Assembly: GCF_025061645.1 (NCBI RefSeq)
Contig: NZ_JANYMP010000048.1
Location: 5,787-51,416 of the forward strand
Direction of reading: 5' to 3'
DNA: 45,630 nt
DNA from: Umezawaea endophytica
Lineage (GTDB): Bacteria > Actinomycetota > Actinomycetes > Mycobacteriales > Pseudonocardiaceae
The position numbers and the translations under genes are program-made. The notes under the pieces are model-generated. The model searched no databases and was not told where the DNA came from. It saw only the letters and a program-made list of their open reading frames with translations. Below, piece after piece: positions 3,912 to 18,432 of this stretch. Position 1 is the first letter of the stretch, and each line of letters starts with the position of its first letter.

Positions 3912-4832
3912 TCAGGACCGGATGCGGTCCAGCAGCGGCGGGCTCCAGTGGTCGCCGTAGGCGTGCCGGAGGTCCGGTAGGCGCCAGTCCGCGCCGGACA
4001 CGCTGCCCCGGCACGCGGAACTGCCGCAGCGGCAGGGCATCCGCCACGACTCGACGCCGGTGTGCGTGGCGTAGTCGAGGGTCAGTTCTGTGCCCACTCG
4101 GACGCGGGTCCGCGCGACGACGGTGGTCGCGTCCACGTGCCACAGCGTCGGGTCGCACGAGTGGTTGCCGTAGCGGACCGGGTGGGCCGGGTCCAGGAGC
4201 AGGTGGCAGGCGACGCCGACGGTGAGGCTGCTGTACGGCGGGGTGAGCGCCGCCAGGTCGGTGTCGTCGATGAGGCGGCCGCCCAGGCGCAGCACGACCT
4301 CGCCCGCAGCGATCGGTTCGGTGGCGAACAGGCCCAGGCCCTCGATGGGCGAGTCGCGGACCTCCGCCTTCGGCGTGAGCCACGAGCCGGTCGGGTGGCG
4401 GACCAGCCGCCGTTCGCCGTCGCCGCTCGGGCCGTCGTCCACGAAGCCGTGCCGTCGGTACAAGGCCGCGGCGGCGTGGTTGGACTCCTTCACCGCCAGG
4501 GAGACGGTGCCGTCCGCGCGGTCCACGACCGCGTCGACCAGCGCATCGCCGACCCCTCGGCCGCGGGCGAACGGGGCGACCCACATCGAGATCAGCTCGA
4601 CCCCGTGCCCGTTCGGCATCCCGCTCACCATGCCCGCGGGCTCGCCGTCCAAGTACGCCAGCACGTTGTGCACGCCGTCGAGGCGGTCGCGCCAGCGCCG
4701 CTCGGTGTCGCCCGCGCCCTGCCACTCGGCGAGCTTCGCGCCGAACGCCTCCGGCGCGTCGCGCAGCGCCGCGAGCCTCAGCTCCCGCCAATCCGCCCAG
4801 TCGTCGACCTCTAGTTCCCGGAGCACGACCAC
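3912..4832 (-). CDS. GNAT acetyltransferase fused to a SET-domain protein
   Basis: The 306-residue product joins two enzyme families in one uninterrupted reading frame. Residues 1-145 are a GNAT domain (acetyl-CoA loop ARGRGVGDALVDA near 89-101; YRRHGFVDDG near 125-134). Residues 157-306 are a SET domain with the opening motif EGLGLFA (164-170), the SAM/substrate motif NHSCDPT (223-229), the Tyr of LDYATH (254), and a Cys-rich post-SET tail (C267, C269, C274). SET proteins are SAM-dependent lysine methyltransferases in eukaryotes; bacterial single-domain versions have few known substrates. One chain that could both acetylate and methylate amines is unusual. The start is GTG at 4832; a downstream GTG is also possible. 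It lies 40 bases after the condensation-domain gene on the same strand and may be co-transcribed with it. Substrate unknown. Confidence 0.8.
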   Translation of the reverse strand: MVVLRELEVDDWADWRELRLAALRDAPEAFGAKLAEWQGAGDTERRWRDRLDGVHNVLAYLDGEPAGMVSGMPNGHGVELISMWVAPFARGRGVGDALVDAVVDRADGTVSLAVKESNHAAAALYRRHGFVDDGPSGDGERRLVRHPTGSWLTPKAEVRDSPIEGLGLFATEPIAAGEVVLRLGGRLIDDTDLAALTPPYSSLTVGVACHLLLDPAHPVRYGNHSCDPTLWHVDATTVVARTRVRVGTELTLDYATHTGVESWRMPCRCGSSACRGSVSGADWRLPDLRHAYGDHWSPPLLDRIRS

Positions 4833-4872
4833 CGCACCACCTTCGGCGAGGACCCGCCCCGGCGCAACACGA

Positions 4873-6525
4873 TTACCGGCCGGTGCCCTCCGCCAGCACC
4901 GGCATCGACCGCCAGGCGTCCAGGTCGTCGAGGTCGTCCGGCGCGGCGGCGCACACGACGTACCTGCCCGGCGCCATCGCCGTGTACCGGCCGGGCAGCA
5001 GCGCCACGCACTTCTCGTGGATCGCCTGCGGCTTCTCGTCCGCCACGACGTACCCGACCAGCTCGTCGGAGCCGAACACCGCCGCCTGCCCGCCGGTCGC
5101 CTCCGCGAGCACCCTCCTGACCTCGGCCAGCTCCACCCAGCACGAGTCGACGCACACCCAGCCGTCGCCGCGGTCGACCGGCACGATCCCGGTGATCGCC
5201 GGGACCTCCGCCACCGGCACCTCGCGGGCGGCGGACGCGACGAGCAGCGCCTCGACCCCGCGCAGGAACCCCTCGATGTCGGCGGGCGGCAGGTAGCGGG
5301 TGTCGGCGTAGAGCGCCAGCCGCACGTCGCTGCCCGCGCTGATCACGGTGAAGTAGAACGCCACCGGGTACGAGGTGGCGGGCAGCCAGGAGAACGAGGA
5401 CTGCTGCGCGGCGAGCGCGACGGCGGTGGGCGGCGTGGGGTCGATCACCCGCACCTCGCCGTGCGCGCCGACGTCGTTGAACACGCAGTCGCGCTGGAAC
5501 CTGGTGCCGCGCTCGGTCGCCACGCGGTCCATCACCGGCCACAGCCGCCGCGCCTCGAACTGGCTGTACCGGTAGGCGTTCATGGTGGCCACCTGCACAC
5601 CGCGGATCACCGCGTCCACAGTGGACTCGCCGAGTTCGAACGGCACCAGCGCGTCCTGCGCGATCGTGCCGACGTAGTCGGCCATGCCGGGCCGGAACCG
5701 GTTGCCGCAGATGGACACCAGCGCGCCGCGGGCGTTGCCGGTGCGCACCGCGAGCAGGGTCGCCGCGGCGGCGAGCAGGACGGTCGAGTGGCTGACCCCG
5801 GTCCGCGCCACGATCGCGGGCAGCGCCAGCCCCGCGGCGGGTGAGCTCAGGTACCCCTCCCGACAGCCCTCCTCCCCCGCGGCGGGCACGGAGAACACGC
5901 ACTGCGGCATCCGGCGCAACTGGTTCTCCCAGAACCGCACCGCCGCACCGGCCCGCCGCCGAGCGGGTTCGGTGGCCTCCAGCGCGGCCTGGTCGAGCGG
6001 CTGGTGCGCGGTCGGGCCGACCACGCGGAGCGCGGGATCGGCCATCATCGCGGCGAGTTGGGCGGCCACCAGCGAGATGCTGGCGAAGTCCGTCGCCAGG
6101 TGCGACAACGCCAGCGCGACCAGGTGCGGCACGCCGTCACGGGTGGCGACGGCGACCCGCACCGGCAAGTCCTCGGCGTAGTCGAACGGTTGGCCCGCCA
6201 GGCTTTCCCGCAGCAGCGGCTCCACGTCCGGGCCGTCCAGCTCGGTCAGCTCGACGGTCAGCGAGCCCACGGCCGTCACGACCTGCCTCGCGCGCTCGCC
6301 GGGGACGATGGTGGTGCGCAGCGCCTCGTGCCGCGCGATCAGCACGGCCAGCACCTCGCCGATGTCGGCCGCCGTCACGCCGACAGGCACCGGAACGAAG
6401 CGGCACAGGATGTCCGAGCGCTCCTGGCGCTGCGCGCCGATCCACTCCAGCACGTTGCCCTGGCCGAGGGTCACCGGTCCCTCACCACCGCGAGCACCGG
6501 TGAAGTCGACGCGCAGTTGTCCCAT
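4873..6525 (-). CDS. Free-standing condensation-domain enzyme
   Basis: The 550-residue protein has the two-lobe chloramphenicol-acetyltransferase-like fold of NRPS condensation domains (family-typical segment VLIARHEALRTTIV at about 61-74), with no adenylation or carrier domain. The catalytic HHxxxDG motif reads SHLATDF at residues 141-147: the second His (H142) and the Asp (D146) remain, while the first His and the Gly are replaced. The second His is the essential one in studied domains, so catalysis is possible. The ATG at 6525 has GGGAGG upstream. A well-formed promoter lies at 6558-6599 and shares its operator with the operon promoter at 7225, tying this gene to the aminoacyl-carrier pathway. 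The likely job is amide or ester formation between the carrier-bound acyl chain and a second molecule; this is inference. It could also act as an acyltransferase like PapA-type enzymes. Confidence 0.8.
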   Translation of the reverse strand: MGQLRVDFTGARGGEGPVTLGQGNVLEWIGAQRQERSDILCRFVPVPVGVTAADIGEVLAVLIARHEALRTTIVPGERARQVVTAVGSLTVELTELDGPDVEPLLRESLAGQPFDYAEDLPVRVAVATRDGVPHLVALALSHLATDFASISLVAAQLAAMMADPALRVVGPTAHQPLDQAALEATEPARRRAGAAVRFWENQLRRMPQCVFSVPAAGEEGCREGYLSSPAAGLALPAIVARTGVSHSTVLLAAAATLLAVRTGNARGALVSICGNRFRPGMADYVGTIAQDALVPFELGESTVDAVIRGVQVATMNAYRYSQFEARRLWPVMDRVATERGTRFQRDCVFNDVGAHGEVRVIDPTPPTAVALAAQQSSFSWLPATSYPVAFYFTVISAGSDVRLALYADTRYLPPADIEGFLRGVEALLVASAAREVPVAEVPAITGIVPVDRGDGWVCVDSCWVELAEVRRVLAEATGGQAAVFGSDELVGYVVADEKPQAIHEKCVALLPGRYTAMAPGRYVVCAAAPDDLDDLDAWRSMPVLAEGTGR

Positions 6526-6557
6526 CGCTTTGCCTCCCGAGGCCGACACCCGTGCCG

Positions 6558-6599
6558 ACGGTAGAGCGGGCCCCGAACCGCAGCATGGGGGAAAACCCC
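6558..6599 (-). promoter_or_regulatory. Promoter and shared operator of the condensation-domain gene
   Basis: Read on the minus strand, the palindromic GGGGTTTTCCCC continues into CATGCTGCG (6599 down to 6579), followed after 15 bases by a TACCGT -10-like hexamer (6563-6558) within TACCGTCGGC. The same arrangement occurs before the KAS III gene at 7225-7266. LuxR-HTH regulators such as PimM bind GGGAWWTCCC-type dyads, so the LAL regulator at 1078 is the obvious candidate activator. The predicted transcript would start near 6551, leaving a short leader with a good ribosome binding site. Confidence 0.65.
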
Positions 6600-6667
6600 T
6601 CTTCCGCCCAGTAATCCCGGCTCGCGGCGTGGACCGGCACGGCTCCCGGCGGACAGGATCGGGCGTC

Positions 6668-7225
6668 ATGAGACCAGTGACGCTGCGCCGCCGCGACGCG
6701 GAGGAGACGCGCGCGGTGCTGGACGAGGCCGTGCGCGTGCACGGCGAGGTCCACGCCGTGCCGCCGTTCGCGGGCATCCCGTACTACGCCGACGACCGGT
6801 TCCGCGACCGGCTGGTCATCGCGTCGCGGCAGCCGGGGTTCGGCCTGCTCGCGGCCGAGGACGGCGACGAGACGGCGGGCTACCTCTACGGCTTCGCCCT
6901 GCCCGGCCACACGCGCTGGTGGTCGCCGCTGAAGGACGTCCTGCCCGCCGAGATCACGGCGGAGACGGGGGCCCGCACGGTGTTCATCCAGGAGATCATG
7001 GTGCGCGAGCGGTGGCGCGGCAGGGAGATCGCGCGCACCCTGCACGACGAGTTCCTGCGCTCCCGCACCGAGGAGCGCGGCCTCATCTGCGTCGAACCGG
7101 GCAACGACCTCGCCCGCTCCGCCTACCTGCGCTGGGGCTGGACGCCGATCGCCACCACCGCGTTCACCCCCACCGGTCCCGCGTTCGACTGCCTCCTCAA
7201 ACCCCTCGGTAGGGTGCGGGTGTAG
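6668..7225 (+). CDS. GNAT-family N-acetyltransferase
   Basis: The product is a 185-residue single-domain acetyltransferase. The acetyl-CoA binding region is FIQEIMVRERWRGREIARTL, with a degenerate pyrophosphate loop, and the C-terminal half holds the GNAT strand-helix NDLARSAYLRWGWTPIATT. The ATG at 6668 gives a normal-length GNAT, but no strong Shine-Dalgarno sequence is seen. It is divergent from the condensation-domain gene across 142 bases containing one copy of the shared operator, and its stop codon touches the operator of the downstream KAS III promoter. That packing suggests it belongs to the cluster, as a tailoring or self-protection enzyme acetylating a free amine. The substrate cannot be read from the sequence. 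Confidence 0.75.
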   Translation: MRPVTLRRRDAEETRAVLDEAVRVHGEVHAVPPFAGIPYYADDRFRDRLVIASRQPGFGLLAAEDGDETAGYLYGFALPGHTRWWSPLKDVLPAEITAETGARTVFIQEIMVRERWRGREIARTLHDEFLRSRTEERGLICVEPGNDLARSAYLRWGWTPIATTAFTPTGPAFDCLLKPLGRVRV

Positions 7226-7266
7226 GGATTCCCCCCATGCTGCGACCCGGCCGACCTCCCTAACGT
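7225..7266 (+). promoter_or_regulatory. Promoter and shared operator of the KAS III-to-exporter operon
   Basis: GGGATT followed by CCCCCCATGCTGCG occupies 7225-7244, and TAACGT at 7261-7266 lies 16 bases later. The last 13 bases of the operator are identical to those before the condensation gene, and the downstream ACGTCGGC resembles that promoter's CCGTCGGC. The ATG of the next gene is only seven bases after the -10 hexamer and has no clear ribosome binding site, so the transcript is probably leaderless. The operator overlaps the expected -35 position, as for a class II activator. Confidence 0.65.
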
Positions 7267-7273
7267 CGGCGGC

Positions 7274-8233
7274 ATGTCCAGTCGGGTCACCACCTTGGAG
7301 CGGATCGCCGCCTACACACCGAGCAACTCGGTCCCCATCGAGGCCGTCGGGGAATCGCTGGGGCTGCACAGGTACGTCGTGCGGATGTTCCGCAACATCC
7401 ACGGTTTCGACCGCCTGCACGAGGACGCCCAGCTCGACCTGTTCGGTCTCGTCACGGCCGCCGCCGACCTGGTGGTCAAGGCGACCCCGGACCCGAGCGT
7501 GATCAAGTACCTGCTGTTCGCCCACACCGTGCTCGACGTGACGCCGTCGCACGTCGACGCCGCCGACGTGATCCGCGAGGCGCTCGGGCTGGCCGACGCC
7601 GACGCGTTCGCGGTCACCCAGCAGCACTGCGCGAGCGGTCTGGCCGCGATCGACATCGCGGGCGAGCTGCTGCGCTCCGAGGACGACCCGACGGCCCGCG
7701 CGCTGGTGATCACCGGGGAGAAGCCCGTCACCGCGAGGTTCCGGGTCGTCAACAACACCACCATCCTCGGTGAGGCGTCGACGGCGTGCCTGGTCGGCGC
7801 GGGCGGCACCGGCGACGTGGTGCGGGCGTACGGGACCAAGACCCAGGTGCTGCTGTCGGACGGCGTGTACCTGGCCGAGGACCTCGTCACCGAGTTCAAC
7901 GACAACTACACGGCGTTCCTGGCCGAGGCGATCCACAAGGCCCTGTCCCAGGCCGGGCTCACGCTCGACGACATCACCATGCTGGTGCCGCACAACGTGA
8001 GCAGGCTGCTCTGGTGGCGCACGCTCGACGAGCTGGGCATCGACCGGTCGCGGGCGTTCTTCGACAACATCGGGCGCTACAGCCACTGCTGCTGCGCCGA
8101 CCCGTTCCTCAACTACGCCACCCTCCGCGACGAGGGACGGCTGGTCGAGGGCGGCCTGTACCTGCTGACGTCGGTGGGCCTGGGGGCCACCTACGCGGCG
8201 ATGGTGATCGAGCACCGCGGAGGGACGGCATGA
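7274..8233 (+). CDS. KAS III-like (FabH-fold) ketosynthase or acyltransferase
   Basis: The product is a 319-residue thiolase-fold enzyme. The nucleophile motif QQHCASGLAAID puts Cys at about residue 119, and the His motif LVPHNVSRLL at about 240. Where canonical FabH has Gly-Asn-Thr-Ser with the third catalytic residue, this protein reads GRYSHCCCADPF (267-278): Arg replaces Asn and three Cys follow a His. Housekeeping FabH for fatty-acid initiation is therefore unlikely. Divergent KAS III proteins in secondary metabolism either elongate unusual starters or transfer acyl groups to O/N nucleophiles (CerJ-type). As first gene of the operon, overlapping the ligase gene by ATGA, it probably acts on the acyl chain carried by the ACP at 10851. 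Whether it makes a C-C bond or an amide/ester is not decidable here. Confidence 0.85.
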   Translation: MSSRVTTLERIAAYTPSNSVPIEAVGESLGLHRYVVRMFRNIHGFDRLHEDAQLDLFGLVTAAADLVVKATPDPSVIKYLLFAHTVLDVTPSHVDAADVIREALGLADADAFAVTQQHCASGLAAIDIAGELLRSEDDPTARALVITGEKPVTARFRVVNNTTILGEASTACLVGAGGTGDVVRAYGTKTQVLLSDGVYLAEDLVTEFNDNYTAFLAEAIHKALSQAGLTLDDITMLVPHNVSRLLWWRTLDELGIDRSRAFFDNIGRYSHCCCADPFLNYATLRDEGRLVEGGLYLLTSVGLGATYAAMVIEHRGGTA

Positions 8234-9579
8234 CCACGGACTACCTGCGGGGTATCAAGAAGGCGCTCACCGGGAGCGAGGACACCCCGCTCGTGCTGGT
8301 GTGCAACTTCGAGGCGGAAGCCCTGTGGGCCAAGGGTCACGTCGGCCTGCCCGCCGTGCCGTTCTCCGGCTCGACGCGGCTCGTGCGGCGGATGGAGGAG
8401 CTGGGCGTCCTCCTGGCGGGCCCGGACGACTTCCTGGTGCTCTCCGAGGCCCTGGACCCCGGTTTCCGGCGCTACGCGGAAGAACTCGGCTTCGCGCTGC
8501 CGACCGTGCTGGTCCCGGAGAACGTCGACCCGAGCCGGTCCACCGCGGAGGACGCGCTGGACTCCCCTGTGCTGTTGGAAGCGCTGCGGTCGACGGCGGG
8601 CGTGCTGCTGCCGATGGGCACGACGGTGCTGGAGCAGAAGCTCGCCGAGGCGACGGGGCTGCCGCTCGCCGTGCCGGGCGCCGAGGTGTTCGAGCGGGTC
8701 AACAGCAAGATCTACGGCAGGCGCGTCGCCGTGTCGGCCGGACTGCGCCCCGTGCCCGGCTTCGAGTGCGAGACGGTCGCCGAGTTCCTGGCCGTGCTCG
8801 ACGAGGTCGAGCCGCTGGTGGAGCAGGGCGAGCGGGTCGTGGTCAAGGACGCGTACGGCGTGTCCGGCAAGGGACTCGTGGTGCTGGACGGCAAGGTCAA
8901 GGCCTCGGGTCTCCGCAAGCTCGTCACCAGGCGGGCCGCCCGCAGCGGCGACGACCGGCTGCACGTCGTCGTGGAGCGCTGGCTGCCCAAGAGGTTCGAC
9001 CTCAACTACCAGTTCACCGTCGGCCGAGACGGCGCCGTGGTGTTCGACTTCGTCAAGCAGGCCCTCACCGCGGACGGGGTCCACAAGGGCCACCTGGTCC
9101 CGGCCGAGCTGGAGCCGCGCCACCACGACGAGCTGCGGCACGCCGCTTCGGTCATCGGGGAGCGGCTGCACGCGGACGGGTTCAGCGGCGTCGCGGGCGT
9201 GGACGCGATCCTGGGCCTGGACGGAGTGCTGCACCCGCTGCTGGAGATCAACGCGCGGCTCAACATGTCGACCTACCAGGGCGGCGTCACCGAGCGCCTG
9301 CTGCCCGACGGCAGCGCCTGCCTCGCGAAGCACTACACCCTGCGGCTCGCCGCCCGCACCCCGTTCGACGCCGTCCGCGCGGCACTCGGTCCGCTGCTGG
9401 ACGACCGCGACGGCGAGCGCGTGGTGATCACCTGCGCGGGCACGGTCAACGCGAACGCGGCCGACGACGCGCCGTTCGAGGGACGCCTGTACGCGGTCCT
9501 CGTCGCTCCCGACCGGGCGCGGCTGGCCGGGTTGGACGCCGCCACCGAGACCGCACTCACCACGCTGGAGAGCCGATGA
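8230..9579 (+). CDS. ATP-grasp amino acid:carrier-protein ligase (BtrJ-like)
   Basis: The product is a 449-residue ATP-grasp ligase. Visible features are the adenine/phosphate-binding Lys segment VVVKDAYGVSGKGLVVL (about 200-216) and the metal-binding LEINARLNMSTYQGG (E339, N341). ATP-grasp enzymes activate a carboxylate as acyl phosphate and pass it to a nucleophile. In butirosin, BtrJ loads L-glutamate onto the phosphopantetheine thiol of BtrI. Here the next two genes are a PLP decarboxylase and an ACP, the same trio, so loading an amino acid on the ACP at 10851 is the best prediction. The amino acid could be Glu, Asp or another diacid or diamino acid. The start ATG overlaps the previous stop by four bases and the stop overlaps the next ATG in the same way, indicating tight translational coupling. 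Confidence 0.85.
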   Translation: MTTDYLRGIKKALTGSEDTPLVLVCNFEAEALWAKGHVGLPAVPFSGSTRLVRRMEELGVLLAGPDDFLVLSEALDPGFRRYAEELGFALPTVLVPENVDPSRSTAEDALDSPVLLEALRSTAGVLLPMGTTVLEQKLAEATGLPLAVPGAEVFERVNSKIYGRRVAVSAGLRPVPGFECETVAEFLAVLDEVEPLVEQGERVVVKDAYGVSGKGLVVLDGKVKASGLRKLVTRRAARSGDDRLHVVVERWLPKRFDLNYQFTVGRDGAVVFDFVKQALTADGVHKGHLVPAELEPRHHDELRHAASVIGERLHADGFSGVAGVDAILGLDGVLHPLLEINARLNMSTYQGGVTERLLPDGSACLAKHYTLRLAARTPFDAVRAALGPLLDDRDGERVVITCAGTVNANAADDAPFEGRLYAVLVAPDRARLAGLDAATETALTTLESR

Positions 9580-10841
9580 CGAGCGAGTACACCGTGCAGG
9601 GCCACCCGATCAGCGCGTTGGCGGAGGAGTTCGGGACACCCCTGTACGTCTACGACGGCGACGTGCTGCGGGACGTGTACCTGTCGCTGCGCGAGCGCCT
9701 CGACCCGCGCGTCGACATCCTCTACTCCGCCAAGGCGAACCCCAACGTCAGCGTGTGCGCGGTGCTGCGCTCGCTCGGCGCGGGGATCGAGGTGTCGTCA
9801 CTGGTGGAACTGGTGACGGCGAAGCAGGCGGGCGCCGCGCCGGACGACGTGATCTTCCTCGGGCCCGGCAAGTCCCTCGACGAGCTGATCGCGTGCCTCG
9901 AACTGGGGGTGCACGCGATCGTGGCGGAGTCGTTGGAGGAGCTGGAGCTGCTCAACGACATGCGGGTGCCGGGCGGCGCCCGTGTGATGCTGAGGGTCAA
10001 CCCGTCGTTCGAGTCGAAGGGCGCCCGCCTGGCGATGGGCGGCAAACCCCGCCAGTTCGGCGTCGACCAGGACGTGCTGCTGCGGTCCCGGTCGTTCCTG
10101 AGGTCGTTGCGGCACGTCGAGGTCATCGGGATCCACGGCTACATGGGCACGCGCATCCTGGACGCCGAGGACGTCGTGCACAACACCCGCGGCATCCTCG
10201 CCGCCGCCGAGGAGCTGTCGGCCGCGCTCGGGTTCGAGCTGCGGACCGTGGACGTCGGCGGCGGGCTCGGCGTGCCGTACTTCGACAACGAGAAGGACCT
10301 CGACGTCGACCTGCTCGCGACCGGCGTGAACACCGCGGTCGCCGAGTTCCTCGACCGGCGGCCGGGCTGCCGGGTGATCACCGAACTGGGCCGCTACCTC
10401 GTCGGCTGGTGCGGGACGTACGTCGTGCGCGCCCGGTACGTCAAGGAGTCCATGGGCGAGTGGTTCGTGGTCGCCGACGGCGGCACCAACCACCACATGG
10501 CCGCGGTCGGCATCGGCAGCTTCGTGAAACGCAACTTCCCGGTGCGGTCGCTGACCCGCTACACCGAGCCCGCGCTCCGGCCGTACAACATCACCGGTCC
10601 GCTGTGCACGCCGAACGACGTGGTGGCCAAGCAGGTCGCGCTGCCGGAGGTGCGGCCCGGCGACCTGCTCGGCGTCGAGCGGTCCGGCGCGTACGGCCCC
10701 ACCGCCTCCCCCGGCCTGTTCCTCAGCCACGGCTTCCCGGCCGAGGTGCTGGTGCTCGACGGCACACCGCACCTGGTGCGCCGCCGCGACACCGTCGACG
10801 ACCTGCTGGGCAAGCAGGAGCTCATCGCTATCGGAGACTAG
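9576..10841 (+). CDS. PLP-dependent carrier-bound amino acid decarboxylase (BtrK/VinO-like)
   Basis: The 421-residue protein is a fold-type III (alanine racemase-like) decarboxylase of the DapDC/ornithine decarboxylase superfamily. The PLP Schiff-base Lys is in ILYSAKANPN (K53), the phosphate-binding loop is DVGGGLG (about 226-232), and a candidate active-site Cys lies in GPLCTPND (C344). Free-substrate DapDC normally sits in lysine biosynthesis. Here the gene lies between an ATP-grasp ligase and an ACP, as BtrK does; BtrK and VinO decarboxylate an aminoacyl group while it is attached to the carrier. The predicted product is an omega-amino acyl-ACP, for instance 4-aminobutyryl-ACP if glutamate is loaded. 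The gene is coupled to the ligase by an ATGA overlap, and its stop lies within the ACP ribosome binding site. Confidence 0.87.
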   Translation: MTSEYTVQGHPISALAEEFGTPLYVYDGDVLRDVYLSLRERLDPRVDILYSAKANPNVSVCAVLRSLGAGIEVSSLVELVTAKQAGAAPDDVIFLGPGKSLDELIACLELGVHAIVAESLEELELLNDMRVPGGARVMLRVNPSFESKGARLAMGGKPRQFGVDQDVLLRSRSFLRSLRHVEVIGIHGYMGTRILDAEDVVHNTRGILAAAEELSAALGFELRTVDVGGGLGVPYFDNEKDLDVDLLATGVNTAVAEFLDRRPGCRVITELGRYLVGWCGTYVVRARYVKESMGEWFVVADGGTNHHMAAVGIGSFVKRNFPVRSLTRYTEPALRPYNITGPLCTPNDVVAKQVALPEVRPGDLLGVERSGAYGPTASPGLFLSHGFPAEVLVLDGTPHLVRRRDTVDDLLGKQELIAIGD

Positions 10842-10850
10842 GAGTCCACA

Positions 10851-11108
10851 ATGGATCGTTCGAGCGTGGTCAAGACCATCACCGGGGCGCTGTCGGACAT
10901 CATGCAGCGGGAGTACTCGGACGTGACCGAGGAGACCCGCCTGTTCGAGGACCTGCACCTGGACTCCACGTCCGTCCTGACGCTGCTGATGGCGCTGGAG
11001 GACCAGACCGGCATCGAGGTCGACCCGGAGTCGTTGCAGATGGAGAACTTCCAGACCATCGGCACGCTGGCCGACTACATCGAGGGCAACCTCGACGTCT
11101 CGGTTTGA
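10851..11108 (+). CDS. Discrete acyl carrier protein of the aminoacyl pathway (BtrI-like)
   Basis: This is an 85-residue carrier protein with the phosphopantetheine attachment motif LHLDSTSV, the modified Ser being residue 39. It is acidic and helical as expected. Its ATG at 10851 is served by AGGAG at 10840-10844, overlapping the decarboxylase stop. Its place after the ligase and decarboxylase and before KAS-like and acyl-CoA dehydrogenase proteins makes it the shared tether on which the amino acid is loaded, decarboxylated and oxidised. The AcpS-type transferase at 13629 would supply the phosphopantetheine arm. A housekeeping fatty-acid ACP is unlikely, because the usual fab neighbours are missing. 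Confidence 0.92.
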   Translation: MDRSSVVKTITGALSDIMQREYSDVTEETRLFEDLHLDSTSVLTLLMALEDQTGIEVDPESLQMENFQTIGTLADYIEGNLDVSV

Positions 11109-11109
11109 C

Positions 11110-11922
11110 GTGGCGCTGACGCTCCGGTCGGCGAGCGCCTACGTCGCCGACCACCGCCACCCCTACCAGCGCGACGACTGGCTGGTGTCCTACCAGCAGG
11201 ACCTGCTGGCGCCGTTCGACGTGCCGTTCGACGAGAAGTTCCTGAAGCAGGGCGCGAACATCGGGTTCCAGGAGCTGGCCGAGCGCGCGCTGGACGGTCT
11301 CGGTGAACGGCCGGAGCCGGACCTGGTCGTGATCGCCCACGGCCTGCCCGACCACTACCCGTTCCGCTCCATCGGCGGGCACGTCGACAAGCTGGTCGGC
11401 GGGGGGTCGGAGAACTTCGCGATCTCCGACCAGGGCCTGCGGGCGCCGTTCACCGCGCTGCGGATCGGCAACGCCTACGCGAGGTCCGGCCGCTGCCGGC
11501 AGGCGGCGGTGGTCGTGGTGGAGCAGTCGACGTTCGGCCAGGACGAGCCGCTGGCGCGGGACGGCAAGCTCGCGGACTCGGCCGCGGTCCTGGTGCTGGA
11601 CAACGGTTCCGGACGCTGGGAGGTGGCCGCCGTGCCGCCGGCGGGCCACCTGCGCGCCCTGCTCCGCGACACCGTCGAGGGCGAGCACCCGCTCGTGGTG
11701 GCCGGGCCGTGGACCGACGCCGAGCAGGTCGCGGCGACCGGGCTGGCCGACCACCGGGTGGCGCCCGGCTCGTACTGCACGAGCCTGTGGCTGGACCTGG
11801 CCCGGCACCACGAGGAGTGGGCGGACCGCCACGACGCGGTCGTCCTGTGCGACACCGACCCGCGCACGGGTCGCAGCCACGCGGCGCTGCTGCGCCGCCG
11901 AGACACGGAGGGCACCACGTGA
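11110..11922 (+). CDS. KAS-like protein lacking the nucleophile cysteine
   Basis: The 270-residue product resembles the N-terminal half of a thiolase-fold ketosynthase: DLVVIAHGLPDH (strand near the dimer face), then NFAISDQGLRAPFTALRIGNAYARSGR, then VVVVEQ and ADSAAVLVLDN. At the position where KAS III enzymes have Cys in a C-x-G context, this protein reads DQGLRAPF, so the nucleophile is absent. The C-terminal half is short and poorly conserved. The start GTG at 11110 is one base after the ACP stop. It may be a non-catalytic partner of the KAS III-like enzyme at 7274, comparable to chain-length-factor subunits, or a dedicated ACP-binding scaffold. Both are inference; a distant acyltransferase using other residues is also possible. 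Confidence 0.7.
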   Translation: MALTLRSASAYVADHRHPYQRDDWLVSYQQDLLAPFDVPFDEKFLKQGANIGFQELAERALDGLGERPEPDLVVIAHGLPDHYPFRSIGGHVDKLVGGGSENFAISDQGLRAPFTALRIGNAYARSGRCRQAAVVVVEQSTFGQDEPLARDGKLADSAAVLVLDNGSGRWEVAAVPPAGHLRALLRDTVEGEHPLVVAGPWTDAEQVAATGLADHRVAPGSYCTSLWLDLARHHEEWADRHDAVVLCDTDPRTGRSHAALLRRRDTEGTT

Positions 11923-12446
11923 GCTACCCGGCGCTGCTGGACGCGCTGCACGACCGCACGGCGGGCGACCACCTCGTCGCCTCGGCGTCGGGCGTCGTCG
12001 TCGCCTCCCGCGACACCGCCTCGGGCGACAGCCCACTGGCCAGGTTCGGCCTGGGGGTGGACCGCTCGGAACCGGACCGGGCGGCCGTGCTCGACCGGTT
12101 CGCCGACGGCCTCCTGGACCTGCACCGCCACGTGCTGCGGGACGGCGTCGCCCACGCCCTGGAGCACCTGAACAGCCGCACCTCTGTCGGCACGACGCTG
12201 CTGGACCGCCAGCTCGTGCAGGCCTCGCTGGCCGACGTGGCCATCGAGATCCGCGAGAGCGAGGCGCTGCGGCCGCACGACGCGGCGACCCGGTGGCGCG
12301 CCCACCAGGGCCTGGTCCGGGCCGGTCGGCTGCTGCTGACCCTGTTGGGGGCGAGCAGCTTCCTCGTCTCCGGTCCCGGCGGCGACCTGCACCTGGCCGA
12401 GGTCACCGGCAACGTCTACCTGCACCCCGGCGAGGAGGACCGATGA
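11919..12446 (+). CDS. Lone C-terminal helical domain of an acyl-CoA dehydrogenase
   Basis: This 175-residue protein matches only the C-terminal four-helix bundle of acyl-CoA dehydrogenases: ALEHLNSRTSVGTTLLDRQLVQASLADVA resembles the flavin-contacting RxxFGxxLxxxQ helix, and GASSFLVSGPGGDLHLAEVTGNVYLHP resembles the helix that normally holds the catalytic base region. The N-terminal helical and middle beta domains are missing. The GTG start at 11919 overlaps the previous stop, and the stop overlaps the complete dehydrogenase's ATG. Actinobacteria use alpha2-beta2 acyl-CoA dehydrogenases made of two unlike chains in sterol breakdown, so a heteromeric complex with the product of 12443 is plausible. 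The frame is open and flush with both neighbours, arguing against a decayed gene. Confidence 0.7.
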   Translation: MSYPALLDALHDRTAGDHLVASASGVVVASRDTASGDSPLARFGLGVDRSEPDRAAVLDRFADGLLDLHRHVLRDGVAHALEHLNSRTSVGTTLLDRQLVQASLADVAIEIRESEALRPHDAATRWRAHQGLVRAGRLLLTLLGASSFLVSGPGGDLHLAEVTGNVYLHPGEEDR

Positions 12447-13645
12447 CCGGCCTGTTGGGCCACGACGTCGAGCGCGGCGGCGAGGCGCTCGCCGAACCGC
12501 TGCGGCGCCTGCACTCCCAGTGCCGCGAGGTGTCGCCGACGTTCCGCGAGGTCGGGATCGCGCTGGACCGCGACCCGGACTCGATCCGCGACTTCCTGCA
12601 CCTGCCCGCGTTCGGGGTGCTGGGCCAGATCTTCACCCCGCCGGAGTTCCAGACCGGCGACCCGGTCGTGGACCCGTTCAACCCGACCTGCACCGCGCTG
12701 TGCGTCGTGCTGGAAGCGCTGTCGCACGGCGACCCCGGCGCGATCCTGGCCGGTCCCGGCGCGGGCCTGTGCCGGGACGTGGTGCGGGAACTGGGTGACG
12801 ACGGGCAGCGGGAGGACTTCTTCGGCCGGGTGAACGACGGTCCGAAGTGGACGTTCTTCGGCCTGACCGAGCCGGGCAAGGGTTCGGCTGCGCTGGAGCT
12901 GGAGACCCGGCTCGTGCCCGACGGCGACGACTGGCTGCTGCACGGCGAGAAGAAGTACATCGGCAACGGCGCCCGCGCGCAGCTCGGTGTCGTGTTCGCC
13001 CGCCGCGCGCCGGGCCCGTGGGGCATCGAGGCCGTCGTGGTCGACCCGTCCGACGAGGGCTTCACCGGCGAGCTGCTGCCGATGATCGGCCTGCGCGGCG
13101 CGCGGATCAGCCACCTCAGTTTCGACGGGGTGCGGATCCCGGCGGAGCGCGTGCTGGGCAGGCACCGCCCGCCGAGCCGCCGGGGCATCTACGGCGCCCT
13201 GCACGCCCTGCTGCGGTTCCGGCCCGGCCTGGGCGCGATGACGCTGGGCCTGACGCAGGCCGCTGTCGACTACCTCGCCGAGCACCGCCCGGTGCTGCCG
13301 AAGGCCGACCAGGCGCGGGTGGACGCGCTGAACGACCGCATCGCCGCCGTGCGGAGGCTGATGTACGAGGTCGCCGCGGACGTGGACCGGAACGTGGTGA
13401 ACGCGCACCGCATCGGCTCGGTGAAGATGCGCGCCGCGCAACTCGGTGAGCAGGCGACGATCCTCGCCGCCGAGCTGCTCGGCCCGGCGTCGCTGGTCGA
13501 GCACCCGTGGCTGGAGAAGGCCTACCGCGACCTGCGGGCGTTCGAGTTCATGGAGGGCACCAGCAACCTGCACCGGCTGTCGGTGTTCCAGGGCCTGTTG
13601 AAGAGCGACTACTTCCCGGTGGACGTCGATGCGCCTCGGTATTGA
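12443..13645 (+). CDS. Acyl-CoA (acyl-ACP) dehydrogenase family flavoenzyme
   Basis: The 400-residue protein has the full three-domain acyl-CoA dehydrogenase layout. The flavin-binding strand FFGLTEPGKGSAALELET (about 138-155) matches the usual TEPxxGSD motif with altered last residues, and the C-terminal FEFMEGTSNLHRL carries Glu at about residue 371, the usual catalytic base position. In this operon the substrate is more likely the ACP-bound amino-acyl chain than a CoA ester, as seen for dehydrogenase-like enzymes acting on carrier-bound prolyl or acyl groups in other pathways. Desaturation of a decarboxylated aminoacyl-ACP would give a 2,3-enoyl or imine-type intermediate. It begins with an ATGA overlap and runs 17 bases into the AcpS gene. 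Confidence 0.85.
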   Translation: MTGLLGHDVERGGEALAEPLRRLHSQCREVSPTFREVGIALDRDPDSIRDFLHLPAFGVLGQIFTPPEFQTGDPVVDPFNPTCTALCVVLEALSHGDPGAILAGPGAGLCRDVVRELGDDGQREDFFGRVNDGPKWTFFGLTEPGKGSAALELETRLVPDGDDWLLHGEKKYIGNGARAQLGVVFARRAPGPWGIEAVVVDPSDEGFTGELLPMIGLRGARISHLSFDGVRIPAERVLGRHRPPSRRGIYGALHALLRFRPGLGAMTLGLTQAAVDYLAEHRPVLPKADQARVDALNDRIAAVRRLMYEVAADVDRNVVNAHRIGSVKMRAAQLGEQATILAAELLGPASLVEHPWLEKAYRDLRAFEFMEGTSNLHRLSVFQGLLKSDYFPVDVDAPRY

Positions 13646-13997
13646 CCTGCTGACCCGCCACGAGCTGGACGGGTTGCTGAGCCGGACGTGGTTCCGCCGC
13701 TTCGCCTTCGCCGACGCCGAACTGGCGCACGCGGAGACGCTGGCGGCGGACCGGGGCGGCGAGTTCCTGGCGGGCCGGTTCGCCGCGAAGGAGGCCGTGC
13801 TGAAGGTGCTGGGCACCGGGCTGTTCCAGGGCGTGGTGCCCAGCCACATCTCGGTGGTCCGCGACGGCTCGGGAGCGCCGTCGGTGTCGTTGCGCGACAG
13901 CGCTTCGACCGCGGCGGAGGCGGCCGGGATCACGCACGTGACCGTGTCGATCACGCACAAGCGGGAACTGGTGGCGGCCGTGGCGGTGGGCTGGTGA
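13629..13997 (+). CDS. AcpS-type 4'-phosphopantetheinyl transferase
   Basis: The product is a 122-residue holo-ACP synthase-like enzyme. The first motif MRLGIDLL holds the Mg-binding Asp (residue 6) and the second, GRFAAKEAVLKVLG, holds the conserved Glu and Lys; the third, SITHKRELVAAVAV, closes the fold. The small AcpS class is trimeric and normally serves fatty-acid ACPs. Its position inside the operon indicates that it converts the operon's own ACP to the holo form. The ATG at 13629 lies within the end of the dehydrogenase gene, and the stop overlaps the GTG of the exporter ATPase, so production is translationally coupled. Confidence 0.9.
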   Translation: MRLGIDLLTRHELDGLLSRTWFRRFAFADAELAHAETLAADRGGEFLAGRFAAKEAVLKVLGTGLFQGVVPSHISVVRDGSGAPSVSLRDSASTAAEAAGITHVTVSITHKRELVAAVAVGW

Positions 13998-14935
13998 TCA
14001 TCGACGCGCGCGGGCTGCGGCGGTCGTTCGGCGAGGTGGAGGCCGTGCGCGGCGTGGACCTGGGGGTGGAGGCGGGCGAGACCGTCGGCCTGCTCGGTCC
14101 CAACGGGGCGGGCAAGACCACGACGCTGCGGATGCTGACCACGTTGCTGCGCCCCACGTCCGGCACCGCCACCGTCGCCGGGGCGGACCTGCTGACCGAG
14201 CAGGCCCTGGTGCGGCGCAGGATCGGGTACGTCGCGCAGAGCGGCGGCACCGAGGCGCGCTGCCGGGTCGGCGAGGAACTGGTGCTCCAGGCGGAGCTGT
14301 ACCGGCTCGACCGGACGACCGCCCGCCGCCGGGCCTCCGAGCTGTGCGAACTCCTCGGGCTGGCGGGTTTGGAGAACCGCGCCGTCGGCACGCTCTCCGG
14401 CGGCCAGCGGCGCAAGCTCGACATCGCGCTCGGCCTGGTCCACTCCCCCGCGCTGCTGTTCCTGGACGAGCCGAGCCTGGGCCTCGACCCGAGCAGCCGC
14501 GACGACCTGTGGGACCACCTGCGGGCGTTGCGCGGCACGACGGTGCTGCTCACGACCCACTACCTCGACGAGGCCGACGCGCTGTGCGACCGGCTGCTGG
14601 TCGTGGACCGCGGGGTCGTGGTCGCGCAGGGGACCTCGGACGAACTCAAGCGCGGGTTGGCGGGCGACGTCGTCACGGTCGACGTCGACCGCGCCGCCGT
14701 GCGGGTCCTCGCCGCCCACCCGTCGGTGCACACGGTGACCGACGACGGCACCGCGCTCAGGCTGACGGTCGGCGACGGCGACCGCGTGCTGGCCGAACTC
14801 CTGCGGCTGCTCGACAGCGCGGGGTACGCGCCGAGGTCGATCCAGTTGCACCGGCCCACCCTCGACGACGTGTTCCGCGCTGTCACCGGCACGCCGTTGA
14901 CCGACGACGTCCCCGCCCGCACGGCGATCGGCTGA
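13994..14935 (+). CDS. ABC exporter ATPase, DrrA-like
   Basis: The 313-residue nucleotide-binding protein has Walker A GPNGAGKT (35-42), signature LSGGQ (134-138), Walker B LLFLDEPSLGLDP, and an H-loop in LLTTHYLDEADAL. A C-terminal extension of about 80 residues ends in PTLDDVFRAVTG, the DrrA-family hallmark. It would power the permease encoded ten bases downstream. In antibiotic clusters such pairs export the product and protect the producer. The GTG start overlaps the stop of the AcpS gene, so the exporter is made with the biosynthetic enzymes. Confidence 0.92.
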   Translation: MIIDARGLRRSFGEVEAVRGVDLGVEAGETVGLLGPNGAGKTTTLRMLTTLLRPTSGTATVAGADLLTEQALVRRRIGYVAQSGGTEARCRVGEELVLQAELYRLDRTTARRRASELCELLGLAGLENRAVGTLSGGQRRKLDIALGLVHSPALLFLDEPSLGLDPSSRDDLWDHLRALRGTTVLLTTHYLDEADALCDRLLVVDRGVVVAQGTSDELKRGLAGDVVTVDVDRAAVRVLAAHPSVHTVTDDGTALRLTVGDGDRVLAELLRLLDSAGYAPRSIQLHRPTLDDVFRAVTGTPLTDDVPARTAIG

Positions 14936-14945
14936 GGAGACCACC

Positions 14946-15683
14946 ATGCGCGACACCGCGCTCATCTTCCGCAGGCAGCTCTCGACGTCCCTGCGCAGTC
15001 CTCTGTGGATGGTGGTCGGCCTGGTGCAGCCGGTGGTGTACCTGGTGTTCTTCGGCCCGCTGCTGGCGGGGCTGAACCTGGGGGCGAACTCCTGGCAGGT
15101 CTACATCCCCGGCCTGCTGGTGCAGCTCGCGCTGTTCGGGGCGGCGTTCGTCGGCTTCTCGGTGATCGCCGACGTCCGCTCCGGAGTGATCGAGCGGATG
15201 CGCGTCACGCCGGTCAGCCGGGTCGCCCTGCTGCTCGGCCGGGTGCTGCGCGACGTCGTGCTGCTGGTCGCCCAGACCGTCGTGCTGCTGGTGGTGGCCT
15301 TCGGCTTCGGGCTGCGCGCCCCGATCGGCGGCGTCCTGCTCAGCCTGGTGCTGATCGCCCTGCTCACCACGAGCCTCGCCGCGCTGTCGTACACCTTCGG
15401 TTTGGCCACGAAGAGCGAGGAGTCGTTGGCACCGCTGCTGAACACGGTCACCGTGCCGCTGCTGCTGCTCTCCGGGATCCTGCTGCCGATGTCGCTCGCG
15501 CCCGCGTGGCTCGACGTCATCTCGCGCTTCACCCCGCTGCGGTACGTCGTCGACGCGATCCGCGACGCCTTCCTCGGCCACTACACCTCGACGACCACGC
15601 TCACCGGCCTCCTGGTCGCCGCGGGCCTCGCCGGGATCGCCATCGCCTGGGGCTCAAGGGTGTTCCGCCGCGACAACGCCTAG
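14946..15683 (+). CDS. ABC-2 type exporter permease, DrrB-like
   Basis: The product is a 245-residue membrane protein with about six hydrophobic segments, including LALFGAAFVGFSVIADV and LLLLSGILLPMSLAPAWLD, the latter a typical ABC-2 signature before a final amphipathic and membrane segment. It follows the DrrA-like ATPase with GAGGAG before its ATG and is the last gene of the operon that starts at 7274. Its final 30 bases overlap the convergent TetR gene tail to tail. The most likely role is export of the cluster's product. Substrate unknown. Confidence 0.9.
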   Translation: MRDTALIFRRQLSTSLRSPLWMVVGLVQPVVYLVFFGPLLAGLNLGANSWQVYIPGLLVQLALFGAAFVGFSVIADVRSGVIERMRVTPVSRVALLLGRVLRDVVLLVAQTVVLLVVAFGFGLRAPIGGVLLSLVLIALLTTSLAALSYTFGLATKSEESLAPLLNTVTVPLLLLSGILLPMSLAPAWLDVISRFTPLRYVVDAIRDAFLGHYTSTTTLTGLLVAAGLAGIAIAWGSRVFRRDNA

Positions 15684-16298
15684 TCCGCTCGCGAGCTGGG
15701 CGAAGCCCGCCTCGGCCGCCGCGACGGCGTCCGGGTAGACGGCGTCCGCGCCCGCACCCGCCACGACCGCTTCGCGGTTGGCCAGCGACAACGTCCACAC
15801 CACGGCCATGACCTGCGCGGCGGCGAGCCGCGCGGTGAAGTCGGGCAGGCCCGCCGTGTCGCGCAGCGCCTCGGCCAGCGCGCGCTCGCCGTTGTCCTTG
15901 AACTTGAGCATCCCCCCGGCGAGCGAGGGCGTCTCCAGGATCAGCCGGTACAGCATCAGCGCGGGCTCCAGGTCGGTCAGCCCGGTGATGGGGTCGCGCC
16001 GGGCCAGCCCGTCGAGGTAGTGCTCGCGCAGCGCGTCCAGCGGCGACTGGCCGGACGGCCGTCCGCGCACGACGCGCGCGCTCTCCGTCTCGTGGTCGGC
16101 CAGCCGGTGCGTGACCAGGTCCTCCTTGCTCGGGAAGTAGCTGAACAGGGTCCGCCTCGACACCTCGGCCGCGTCGGCGACCTGGGTGATCGACACCTGG
16201 TCGTACCCGTGCTCGAAGAACAGCGCGATGGCCGTGTTGGAGATCGTCTCGTGCGTCCGCTGCTTCTTCCGCTCGCGCAAGCCGTTCTGCTGGGTCAC
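15654..16298 (-). CDS. TetR-family transcriptional repressor
   Basis: The product is a 214-residue TetR regulator. The N-terminal helix-turn-helix runs about residues 12-58 (THETISNTAIALFFEHGYDQ, then DAAEVSRRTLFSYFPSKEDLV), followed by a variable ligand-binding helical domain. It is divergent from the FAD monooxygenase at 16372 across 73 bases that contain repeated sites, the classic arrangement for a repressor controlling itself and the neighbouring oxidoreductase. Its stop overlaps the exporter permease by 30 bases. It could also sense the cluster's product and tune the exporter, but the exporter has no separate promoter visible. Confidence 0.92.
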   Translation of the reverse strand: MTQQNGLRERKKQRTHETISNTAIALFFEHGYDQVSITQVADAAEVSRRTLFSYFPSKEDLVTHRLADHETESARVVRGRPSGQSPLDALREHYLDGLARRDPITGLTDLEPALMLYRLILETPSLAGGMLKFKDNGERALAEALRDTAGLPDFTARLAAAQVMAVVWTLSLANREAVVAGAGADAVYPDAVAAAEAGFAQLASGLGVVAAEHP

Positions 16299-16320
16299 CC
16301 GCCAAGACTAGCGCCGAACT

Positions 16321-16364
16321 CGCACTCGGGTATAACTTGCACTCAGTCTACTTATGCACTGAGG
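16321..16364. promoter_or_regulatory. Repeated TetR-type operator between TetR and FAD monooxygenase genes
   Basis: Three related decamers, CGCACTCGGG, TGCACTCAGT and TGCACTGAGG, start at 16321, 16338 and 16355, exactly 17 bases apart. The last two also form the inverted repeat CTCAGT-N10-ACTGAG (16342-16363). TATAAC at 16331 could be a -10 element. The last copy overlaps the ribosome binding site (GAGGAG) of the monooxygenase. These are the likely binding sites of the adjacent TetR protein. Confidence 0.6.
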
Positions 16365-16371
16365 AGAGTTC

Positions 16372-18431: not shown

Positions 18432-18432
18432 G

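Follow-up and report, generated by a model that had tools for sequence, protein, structure and literature searches.

A probable dehydro-beta-alanine cassette in a small gene cluster of Umezawaea endophytica without NRPS modules

Results

Gene content of the locus

The window, a 45,630-nt stretch of Umezawaea endophytica DNA (contig NZ_JANYMP010000048.1), was mapped by reading frames and domain matches. It carries a ten-gene operon, all on the forward strand at 7274–15683, in the order KAS3, ATPG, DEC, ACP, KASL, ACDC, ACAD, AcpS, ABC ATPase and ABC permease (Table 1). Five of the nine junctions are 4-bp overlaps and one, ACAD/AcpS, is an overlap of 17 bp; the remaining gaps are of 1, 9 and 10 bp. 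Every gene named in an earlier, sequence-only reading was found, in frame and in the order given there. That reading was right about a compact operon but placed its end at 13997; two ABC genes extend it to 15683.

Table 1. Features of the operon and its flanks, in window coordinates
Feature	Position	Strand	Basis
COND, stand-alone condensation-domain-like	4873..6525	-	Pfam Condensation E 7e-9
GNAT acetyltransferase	6668..7225	+	Pfam Acetyltransf_1 E 7.8e-6
KAS3, KASIII-like enzyme	7274..8233	+	ACP_syn_III_C E 2e-15
ATPG, ATP-grasp ligase	8230..9579	+	PreAtp-grasp E 7.6e-13; ATP-grasp_3 E 4.3e-5
DEC, BtrK-like PLP decarboxylase	9576..10841	+	domain match E 3.8e-43
ACP	10851..11108	+	PP-binding E 1.5e-10
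KASL, KASIII-fold protein without active-site Cys	11110..11922	+	family profile, hhalign, AlphaFold2/Foldseek
ACDC, lone acyl-CoA-dehydrogenase C-terminal domain	11919..12446	+	domain match E 7.3e-5
ACAD, acyl-CoA-dehydrogenase-type flavoenzyme	12443..13645	+	domain match, Glu371
AcpS-type phosphopantetheinyl transferase	13629..13997	+	domain match
ABC exporter ATPase, DrrA-like	13994..14935	+	TIGR01188 E 3.1e-89, below curated cut-off
ABC exporter permease, DrrB-like	14946..15683	+	TIGR01247 E 4.5e-25, below curated cut-off
TetR-family regulator	15654..16298	-	TetR_N E 1.9e-14

The reported absence of adenylation and PKS modules was borne out. At E 1e-10 the 51-kb contig gave no AMP-binding match, so the idea of an adenylation domain hidden nearby was rejected, and none of the proteins scanned held a PKS or NRPS module. 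No PP-binding match other than the operon ACP was listed for the contig, with 150 of 168 first-look candidates scored. Pfam scanning of the operon proteins gave no ketoreductase or cyclase, and neither an AurF-type N-oxygenase nor a nitronate methyltransferase, the mark of enteromycin clusters, was found among the scanned proteins (window 22–18912, and 22754–26287 in part).

Of the flanking genes, the TetR-family gene possibly encodes a regulator of the exporter or the cluster. The GNAT gene was matched by a counterpart in only three related loci (L045, from Umezawaea tangerina DSM 44720, L046 and L028). Proteasome genes at 22.7–24.4 kb were considered as self-resistance genes and rejected: two matches were found in each of seven genomes (this one and six relatives). 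As they are the sole pair in their own genome, and likewise in the six relatives searched, we take them as ordinary housekeeping genes.

Loading and decarboxylation

Among PDB entries DEC came closest to BtrK (7ru7 and 2j66, E about 2e-87); a diaminopimelate decarboxylase matched more weakly (E 1.2e-51). Lys53 and Cys344 of DEC are present in all 88 ungapped family sequences, and the phosphopantetheine site of the ACP, Ser39, in 89 of 89. A BtrK-homologous decarboxylase thus adjoins an ATP-grasp ligase and an ACP, the combination that makes up the butirosin set; carrier-bound decarboxylation would be common to both. To our knowledge the BtrJ/BtrK/BtrI set works with Glu and GABA, and KASIII and dehydrogenase partners are absent from it. 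The window cassette has such partners. We read it as an Asp/beta-alanine system: ATPG is proposed to load Asp onto ACP through the beta-carboxyl, and DEC, by analogy, to convert isoaspartyl-ACP to beta-alanyl-ACP. Sequence cannot distinguish Asp from Glu as substrate.

KAS3 and its Cys-less partner

The candidate catalytic residues of KAS3 are Cys119, His240, His271 and Asp276. In an 89-sequence family alignment, which includes the window's own sequence and five loci fetched twice, Cys119, His271 and Asp276 are each invariant (89/89) and the FabH-type His240 is found in 86. His271 and Asp276 align with the GH....D motif of CerJ (3s3l), where the four FabH chains compared have GNTSAA or GNTSTA; all 89 KAS3 sequences carry His where FabH has this Asn. 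Because a CerJ-like GH....D stands in place of the FabH GNTS.A, we favor acyl transfer and propose KAS3 as an acyltransferase; Claisen chemistry, which the conserved His240 would allow, seems less likely. The KASIII fold, the Cys and the motif are shared with CerJ-type acyltransferases; overall similarity to them is low, and KAS3 differs in its proposed N-acyl transfer and in having a Cys-less partner. The KAS3 profile also matched PqsC (6esz, E 9.8e-9).

KASL had no match in Pfam or NCBIfam. Its family profile matched FabH (4ryb, E 1.2e-6), hhalign aligned it with KAS3 over the N-terminal half (90%, E 1.5e-6), and its AlphaFold2 model (pLDDT 93.1) gave FabH as best Foldseek match (E 1.7e-12, TM 0.66 by query length). 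Profile, alignment and model thus bear out the sequence-only assignment of a KAS-like partner without Cys: the active-site position lies in a QGL.AP motif from which Cys is absent. An active-site KASIII and a Cys-less KASIII-fold protein are therefore encoded together, an arrangement like that of PqsBC, a pair of active and inactive KASIII proteins. We surveyed relatives at 96 distinct ATP-grasp loci; KAS3, DEC and KASL occurred together in 80, above chance. This co-occurrence suggests that KASL is the partner of KAS3 and that the two may form a two-subunit enzyme.

The dehydrogenase pair

The catalytic-base position of ACAD is Glu371, within an MEGT motif; across the family this position is Glu in 68 and Asp in 10 of 85 sequences. 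ACAD is the proposed desaturase, turning beta-Ala into Dba (dehydro-beta-alanine, 3-aminoacrylate). The ACDC family profile matched SCAD (E 1.8e-6) and gave no significant alignment with the ACAD profile. ACDC was found in 64 of the 96 loci and never without ACAD, so that it may be the partner of ACAD in a two-subunit enzyme.

The condensation enzyme

The COND start codon is uncertain, its reading frame being open to 6777. The HxxxD motif is retained (His in 50 and Asp in 51 of 51 aligned sequences, NRPS C domains included). Relatives of the window type share a C-terminal tail of ~120 aa. By eye we suspected a vestigial A-domain C-subdomain there, but the tail had no Pfam match, even at E 10, and outside condensation proteins only one weak match (E 0.095). 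In 16 others of the 96 loci a COND of this type adjoins the cassette, along with genes for ABC and AcpS proteins; the genera include Umezawaea, Micromonospora, Microbispora, Catenulispora, Plantactinospora and Actinacidiphila. The sequence-only reading gave the condensation enzyme at 4873 a part in the pathway, and this recurrence supports the association of such an enzyme with these clusters.

Related cassettes

The cassette is spread over many actinomycete genera and one alphaproteobacterium. Ten relatives with KAS3, DEC, KASL and ~9 kb of downstream sequence had neither ACAD nor ACDC. Among AurF-type loci, ACAD was present in 8 of 12 and missing in L075, L089 and L090, which belong to those ten; the sequence of L062 is incomplete.

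Streptomyces achromogenes (L066) and S. albireticuli (L078) carry the cassette from KAS3 to ACAD in the same order, at 39–66% identity per gene. Its neighbors in L078 are AurF, a protein resembling amino acid:ACP ligases and a methyltransferase; the AurF-like and methyltransferase protein clusters to which two of these belong are represented in L066 too. With an AurF N-oxygenase and a methyltransferase next to the cassette, these two loci are likely enteromycin-type. S. albireticuli is presumably an enteromycin producer, and enteromycin has been published from a different strain of S. achromogenes. In enteromycin, the acrylate half is a single three-carbon unit. Relative to the window, L066 and L078 have in addition the AurF-like N-oxygenase, the methyltransferase, a second ACP and a type II thioesterase; no window-type COND or Drr exporter was found in them. 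A literature search for the nitronate enzyme returned nothing.

The U. endophytica genome itself has a second cassette, with a four-module NRPS. It does not match enamidonin cleanly: the first and third A domains are 72% alike, the second and fourth differ.

Discussion

Precedents for carrier-bound Dba

The sequence-only reading called the gene set apparently undescribed and did not recognize it as any known natural-product cluster. For the core chemistry this does not hold, and a lack of any known natural-product logic is rejected: two reports describe the same step logic for Dba, in bolagladins (PMC7756342) and in AFC-BC11 (PMC12186527). In the bolagladin pathway of Burkholderia gladioli the BtrK-like BolN is proposed to act on carrier-bound aspartate; deletion of bolN abolished the product and deletion of bolQ gave beta-Ala analogues (PMC7756342). 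The enzymes of that pathway (BolO, BolC, BolN, BolM/BolP and BolQ) share with the window a free-standing ACP, a BtrK-like decarboxylase, two KASIII homologues and an acyl-CoA-dehydrogenase-like desaturase, in the same step logic. By contrast, Asp is loaded there by a VinN-like A domain rather than an ATP-grasp ligase; both KASIIIs lack Cys (having Ser and Thr), whereas KAS3 has Cys119; and the single Dba unit feeds a four-module NRPS. N-acylation by BolM/BolP is only proposed, one of the two KASIIIs being proposed for C-C elongation of a fatty chain, and the available portion of the account mentions no dehydrogenase C-domain partner (PMC7756342).

For AFC-BC11, also from Burkholderia, AfcQ loads Asp onto the carrier AfcK, where AfcP converts it to beta-Ala by decarboxylation; assembly takes place on one carrier and without NRPS condensation domains (PMC12186527). 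The Cys-bearing, KASIII-like AfcL makes a peptide bond in vitro: it holds a (beta-Ala)3 thioester and hands the chain to lysyl-CoA. The pathway also requires afcO, a further KASIII-like gene. AFC-BC11 differs from the window in its VinN-type A domain, its fatty acyl-AMP ligase and its iterative Dba trimer on one carrier; the ligase AfcA adds the fatty acyl cap, and AfcL works on the opposite end, releasing the chain from carrier to lysine (PMC12186527), whereas we propose that KAS3 caps the amine. A third precedent, autucedine/enamidonin/olenamidonin from Streptomyces olivaceus, is likewise actinomycete; Dba-acyl joining there is proposed for the 3-oxoacyl-ACP-synthase-type AutS/OleH, with AutS joining acyl-CoAs to the ACP-bound unit (PMC11204786). 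Autucedine A absorbs in the UV at about 266 nm (PMC11204786); for a Dba enamide of E geometry a vinyl coupling near 14 Hz would be expected. Those products differ as cyclic peptides with Phe, two Dpr and Gly, and the likeness was drawn from the description, not from gene sequences.

Proposed pathway

The operon encodes a free-standing ACP, a BtrK-like decarboxylase, KASIII-like proteins and an acyl-CoA-dehydrogenase-type enzyme with its catalytic base. As this gene content matches the enzyme classes of published Dba pathways, we read the operon, by analogy and with fair though not full confidence, as a carrier-bound Dba cassette in a small cluster without NRPS modules. AcpS, going by family function, would arm the ACP; ATPG would activate the aspartate beta-carboxyl and load Asp on it; and DEC, as for BtrK, BolN and AfcP, would remove the alpha-carboxyl to give beta-alanyl-ACP. 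KAS3/KASL would then take an acyl group on Cys119 and pass it to the free amine, giving N-acyl-beta-alanyl-ACP, a role suggested by the CerJ-like motif and the proposed roles of BolM/BolP and AutS. ACAD/ACDC would desaturate the C-alpha/C-beta bond, as BolQ may; these two steps are possibly reversed, as written for autucedine. In what is the weakest step, COND may release the Dba acyl group by transferring it to an alcohol or an amine, and the Drr-like ABC pair would export the product. Family membership and precedent thus back the earlier sequence of aminoacyl loading on the ACP, carrier-bound decarboxylation and desaturation. Of its closing alternatives, extension or transfer, the CerJ-like motif and the peptide bond made by AfcL favor transfer.

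Alternative readings

KAS3/KASL could work at the other end, moving a beta-alanyl or Dba chain from ACP through Cys119 to an amine, with any N-cap added by, for example, COND. AfcL does this in vitro with a stored (beta-Ala)3 chain (PMC12186527), the CerJ-like motif suits acyl transfer of any kind, and COND retains HxxxD. Yet AutS and BolM/BolP are proposed as amine acylators, and most cassette loci carry KAS3/KASL without window-type COND (present in 16/96); we think this arrangement unlikely, if worth keeping in view. About equally unlikely, and compatible with our main reading, is an iterative ATPG that would give rise to oligo-beta-alanine or oligo-Dba chains in place of a single unit. The single unit of enteromycin speaks against it. 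So does that of the bolagladins (PMC7756342), while the AFC-BC11 trimer built on one carrier speaks for it (PMC12186527).

True BtrJ/BtrK/BtrI chemistry, in which the Glu gamma-carboxyl is loaded and the resulting GABA-ACP is desaturated to a 4-aminocrotonyl unit, seems to us quite unlikely. It has in its favor that DEC is nearest BtrK among solved structures and that the butirosin set is ATP-grasp, ACP and decarboxylase. The relatives with 39–66% identical cassette genes, however, likely make a product with a three-carbon unit, going by the enteromycin structure. The earlier analogy to BtrJ/K/I points to glutamate, while these relatives point to aspartate/beta-alanine. Carrier-bound aspartate is also the reported substrate of AfcP (PMC12186527) and the proposed one of BolN (PMC7756342).

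Less probable still is C-C bond formation, in which a PqsBC-like or FabH-like heteromer would lengthen the aminoacyl chain into a beta-keto unit. The KASIII fold, His240, the PqsC match and the proposed bolagladin elongator (PMC7756342) would suit it; His at the FabH Asn position, the invariant CerJ-type Asp and the absence of a ketoreductase or cyclase among the operon proteins would not. Least probable is that COND is an unrelated neighbor outside the pathway: it lies on the opposite strand, is very divergent (E 7e-9) and has no window-type counterpart in enteromycin-type loci, but it recurs beside the cassette in the 16 other loci, with HxxxD retained.

Novelty and significance

A literature search on the combined gene set found no description. 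The core chemistry has precedents among other antibiotics; the stripped-down arrangement and its product do not. The new features are ATP-grasp loading on a contig in which no AMP-binding domain was found, the pair of partner proteins and the COND-bearing sub-family (16 other loci). Going further, and only tentatively, we suggest a route to N-acyl enamides (Dba) free of NRPS modules, in which ATP-grasp replaces every adenylation domain, an obligate heteromer of active and Cys-less KASIII makes the amides, the dehydrogenase is split into full and lone C-domain subunits, and tailed free-standing condensation enzymes release the product.

The cassette flags clusters that probably produce enamides (Dba), which are rare and reactive; once its product is known, genomes could be mined with it and a prediction for mass spectrometry made cluster by cluster. 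The recurring pairs, active with Cys-less KASIII and dehydrogenase with lone C-domain, make the role of the partner proteins directly testable. If the NRPS-module-free route is true, two types of two-subunit enzyme would be new, and small enamide metabolites would form a widespread class that has so far stayed hidden.

Probable assignment to a dehydro-beta-alanine cassette

Seven genes, from KAS3 to ACAD (the cassette), lie in a single ten-gene operon that is probably a cassette for dehydro-beta-alanine (Dba, 3-aminoacrylate), an assignment resting on the presence in the window of a candidate for each published Dba step. Genes were assigned from Pfam and NCBIfam matches. Neighboring genes overlap by 4 bp at five of nine junctions and by 17 bp at one, with gaps of 1–10 bp at the other three, confirming the tight coupling claimed in a sequence-only reading. 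The adenylation domain which that reading reported absent was indeed not found: there was no AMP-binding match at E 1e-10 anywhere on the contig. No second carrier protein was among the matches listed for the contig (150 of 168 candidates scored).

Operon and flanking features of the window
Position	Strand	Feature
3912-4832	-	one protein, SET domain fused to N-terminal GNAT domain
4873-6525	opposite to operon	COND, stand-alone condensation-domain-like protein
6668-7225		GNAT gene
7274-15683	+	operon, in order: KAS3 (KASIII-like enzyme), ATPG (ATP-grasp ligase), DEC (BtrK-like PLP decarboxylase), ACP, KASL (Cys-less KASIII-like protein), ACDC (lone acyl-CoA-dehydrogenase C-domain), ACAD (acyl-CoA dehydrogenase), AcpS, ABC ATPase, ABC permease
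16372-17781	+	FAD monooxygenase, rifampin monooxygenase relative (NF033145, E 8.9e-113, below its cut-off)
22751-26287	-	Pup-ligase-family gene and two proteasome subunit genes

Among the best 80 of 225 related loci, the FAD monooxygenase had a match in Umezawaea tangerina (L045) only. GNAT-SET fusions seem to be uncommon in bacteria. The proteasome pair is the sole one found in the genome; these genes are ordinary housekeeping, and apparently adjoin the cluster in U. tangerina too.

For the Dba unit of bolagladin it is proposed that BolO loads aspartate on the ACP BolC, that BtrK-like BolN decarboxylates the carrier-bound aspartate, that BolQ desaturates, and that KASIII homologue BolM or BolP performs N-acylation, either being proposed also for fatty-chain elongation (PMC7756342). 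Deletion of bolN abolished bolagladin, which beta-alanine feeding did not restore, and deletion of bolQ gave beta-Ala analogues (PMC7756342). A single carrier protein serves for the assembly of AFC-BC11, whose fatty acyl cap is added by the ligase AfcA; a second KASIII-like gene, afcO, is also required (PMC12186527). In vitro, the KASIII-like enzyme AfcL, which has a Cys/His/Asp triad, transfers the carrier-bound chain to lysyl-CoA (PMC12186527); that this closest tested KASIII releases rather than caps counts against the Dba reading. For autucedine and olenamidonin, the 3-oxoacyl-ACP synthase AutS/OleH may couple acyl-CoAs with Dba held on the ACP, an acylation that would come after desaturation (PMC11204786). 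The window differs in having an ATP-grasp enzyme where the published Dba pathway has an A domain; in closthioamide biosynthesis an ATP-grasp protein, CtaD, is predicted to load beta-alanine (PMC6772006). In the window pathway aspartate would be the substrate, N-acyl transfer and desaturation would take place in a putative order of steps, and COND may release the product.

Dba chemistry is already known, so the suggestion that the pathway was apparently undescribed fails for the chemistry (PMC7756342, PMC12186527). For the ATP-grasp variant with a Cys-less KAS partner and lone dehydrogenase C-domain, we found no description in the open-access papers searched; work on enteromycin and autucedine may cover the same cassette.

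KASIII-like proteins and catalytic residues

The gene content, conservation and catalytic residues of the cassette were observed directly. KASL had no match in Pfam or NCBIfam, and its active-site Cys is lost. A profile of the KASL family hit FabH (E 1.2e-6) and also aligned to KAS3, and FabH was the top structural match (E 1.7e-12) of the KASL AlphaFold2 model (pLDDT 93.1); we count the KASIII fold of KASL as established.

In family alignments, with counts that include the window's own sequences and five loci fetched twice, KAS3 retains Cys119 (89/89), His240 (86/89), His271 (89/89) and Asp276 (89/89), DEC retains Lys53 and Cys344 (88/88 ungapped), and the ACP retains Ser39 (89/89). On the same basis, ACAD has Glu371 in 68 of 85, Asp in 10, gaps in 4 and other residues in 3, and COND, aligned with NRPS C domains, has His142 in 50/51 and Asp146 in 51/51. 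Retention of His240 counts against the Dba reading, as does the failure of the ACDC and ACAD family profiles to align to each other. The KAS3 profile matched CerJ, an acyltransferase (3s3l, E 1.9e-17), with the family's gH....D falling on CerJ GHVGAGD; FabH, by contrast, has GNTSAA or GNTSTA there in the four chains shown.

Distribution of the cassette

ATPG homologues (E 1e-20 or better) occur in 19 of 397 genomes from the same order, the window's own included and G142 being a remote member. When one genome was scanned for each of 84,980 species, 225 related stretches emerged; the best 80 were retained, and the closest of these is from U. tangerina (85% identity). Judged by record title, the sole non-actinomycete among the 80 is the alphaproteobacterium Telmatospirillum siberiense (L094), with a cassette lacking dehydrogenases. 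For the first set of loci, 20-kb surrounding regions were retrieved, and family profiles were run against all 101 loci. Removal of five loci fetched twice (L025, L026, L027, L029, L032) left 96, a count that does not include the window.

KAS3 and KASL were each present in 82 of the 96 and occurred together in 80; DEC was found in 84, ACAD in 67 and ACDC, always accompanied by ACAD, in 64. KAS3 lacked KASL at L073 and L104, whose contigs end <1 kb from the ATP-grasp gene. Two loci had KASL but no KAS3 by profile search: L083, where tblastn recovered KAS3 (E 9e-59, 38% over 305 aa), and L050, where tblastn found none. Of the 80 loci that combine KAS3, DEC and KASL, 64 had ACAD and ACDC, two had ACAD alone (L113, L039) and 14 had neither. 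Four of these 14 end within about 2 kb (L062, L084, L108, L121); the other ten, with neither gene in ~9 kb (L056, L064, L069, L075, L077, L079, L088, L089, L090, L094), count against the Dba reading and possibly represent saturated beta-alanine versions of the pathway.

Twelve of the 96 loci had neither KAS3 nor KASL, nine of them with opposite-strand ABC and condensation-type genes (L086, L091, L093, L096, L103, L111, L117, L031, L033). These nine represent a different pathway, apparently using diaminopropionate. The nine, at least seven of them Amycolatopsis, have the ATP-grasp family, with DEC and the KASIII pair absent from the fetched flanks; several have FabF-type KS, ketoreductase, ACP and SbnA/SbnB-like genes nearby, judged by sequence clustering and by eye.

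Loci with a fatty-acyl-AMP-ligase-like gene beside the cassette, noted by eye (L082, L083, L092, L095, L099, L101, L106, L107, L115, L119, L120 and others), probably make lipid-capped compounds. Some carry additional acyl-CoA dehydrogenases.

COND sub-family and a second cassette

COND, AcpS and the ABC pair define a sub-family comprising the window and 16 others among the 96 loci, in Umezawaea, Micromonospora, Microbispora, Catenulispora, Plantactinospora, Actinacidiphila and other genera. Two adjacent COND genes occur in five of the 16. Sub-family COND proteins share a C-terminal tail, whose profile matched, beyond its source sequences, only twice-fetched copies and one weak candidate (E 0.095).

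The window's genome (G000) holds a second cassette, L043 (with L125), on contig C16 at about 54–94 kb. Its neighbors include SbnB- and SbnA-like genes and, by eye, a tryptophan-halogenase-like gene; SbnA and SbnB serve 2,3-diaminopropionate synthesis. The L043 NRPS is a single 5298-codon frame with four adenylation domains, the first and third 72% identical. Its product may be an autucedine/enamidonin-like lipopeptide.

Enteromycin-type relatives

Among the best 80 of the 225 loci, an AurF-like family occurs in 12 and a methyltransferase family in 12, with both in 11. In L078, from Streptomyces albireticuli, AurF was confirmed (E 1.8e-32) alongside a second ACP, AcpS, a methyltransferase and a type II thioesterase. 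L078 also encodes a protein that resembles seryl-tRNA synthetases and is nearest to amino acid:ACP ligases (PRK07080, E 1.7e-33, under the cut-off of that family). This gene set is consistent with enteromycin, which contains a 3-aminoacrylate unit and which S. albireticuli presumably makes. Enteromycin biosynthesis includes O-methylation of a glycine-derived nitronate (PMC9967187, PMC11035981). Streptomyces achromogenes var. streptozoticus NRRL 3125 is named in connection with enteromycin (PMC11035981); L066 is from another S. achromogenes strain. ACAD is present in eight of the twelve AurF-type loci; L062 ends early, and absence of ACAD from the fetched flanks of L075, L089 and L090 speaks against a uniform product. 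Cellulosimicrobium regions are given 12% antiSMASH similarity to the enteromycin reference cluster (PMC11204466, PMC12299239), and Cellulosimicrobium loci in our set carry the cassette, which indirectly supports the enteromycin link. These named relatives are the decisive lead to the function of the cassette.
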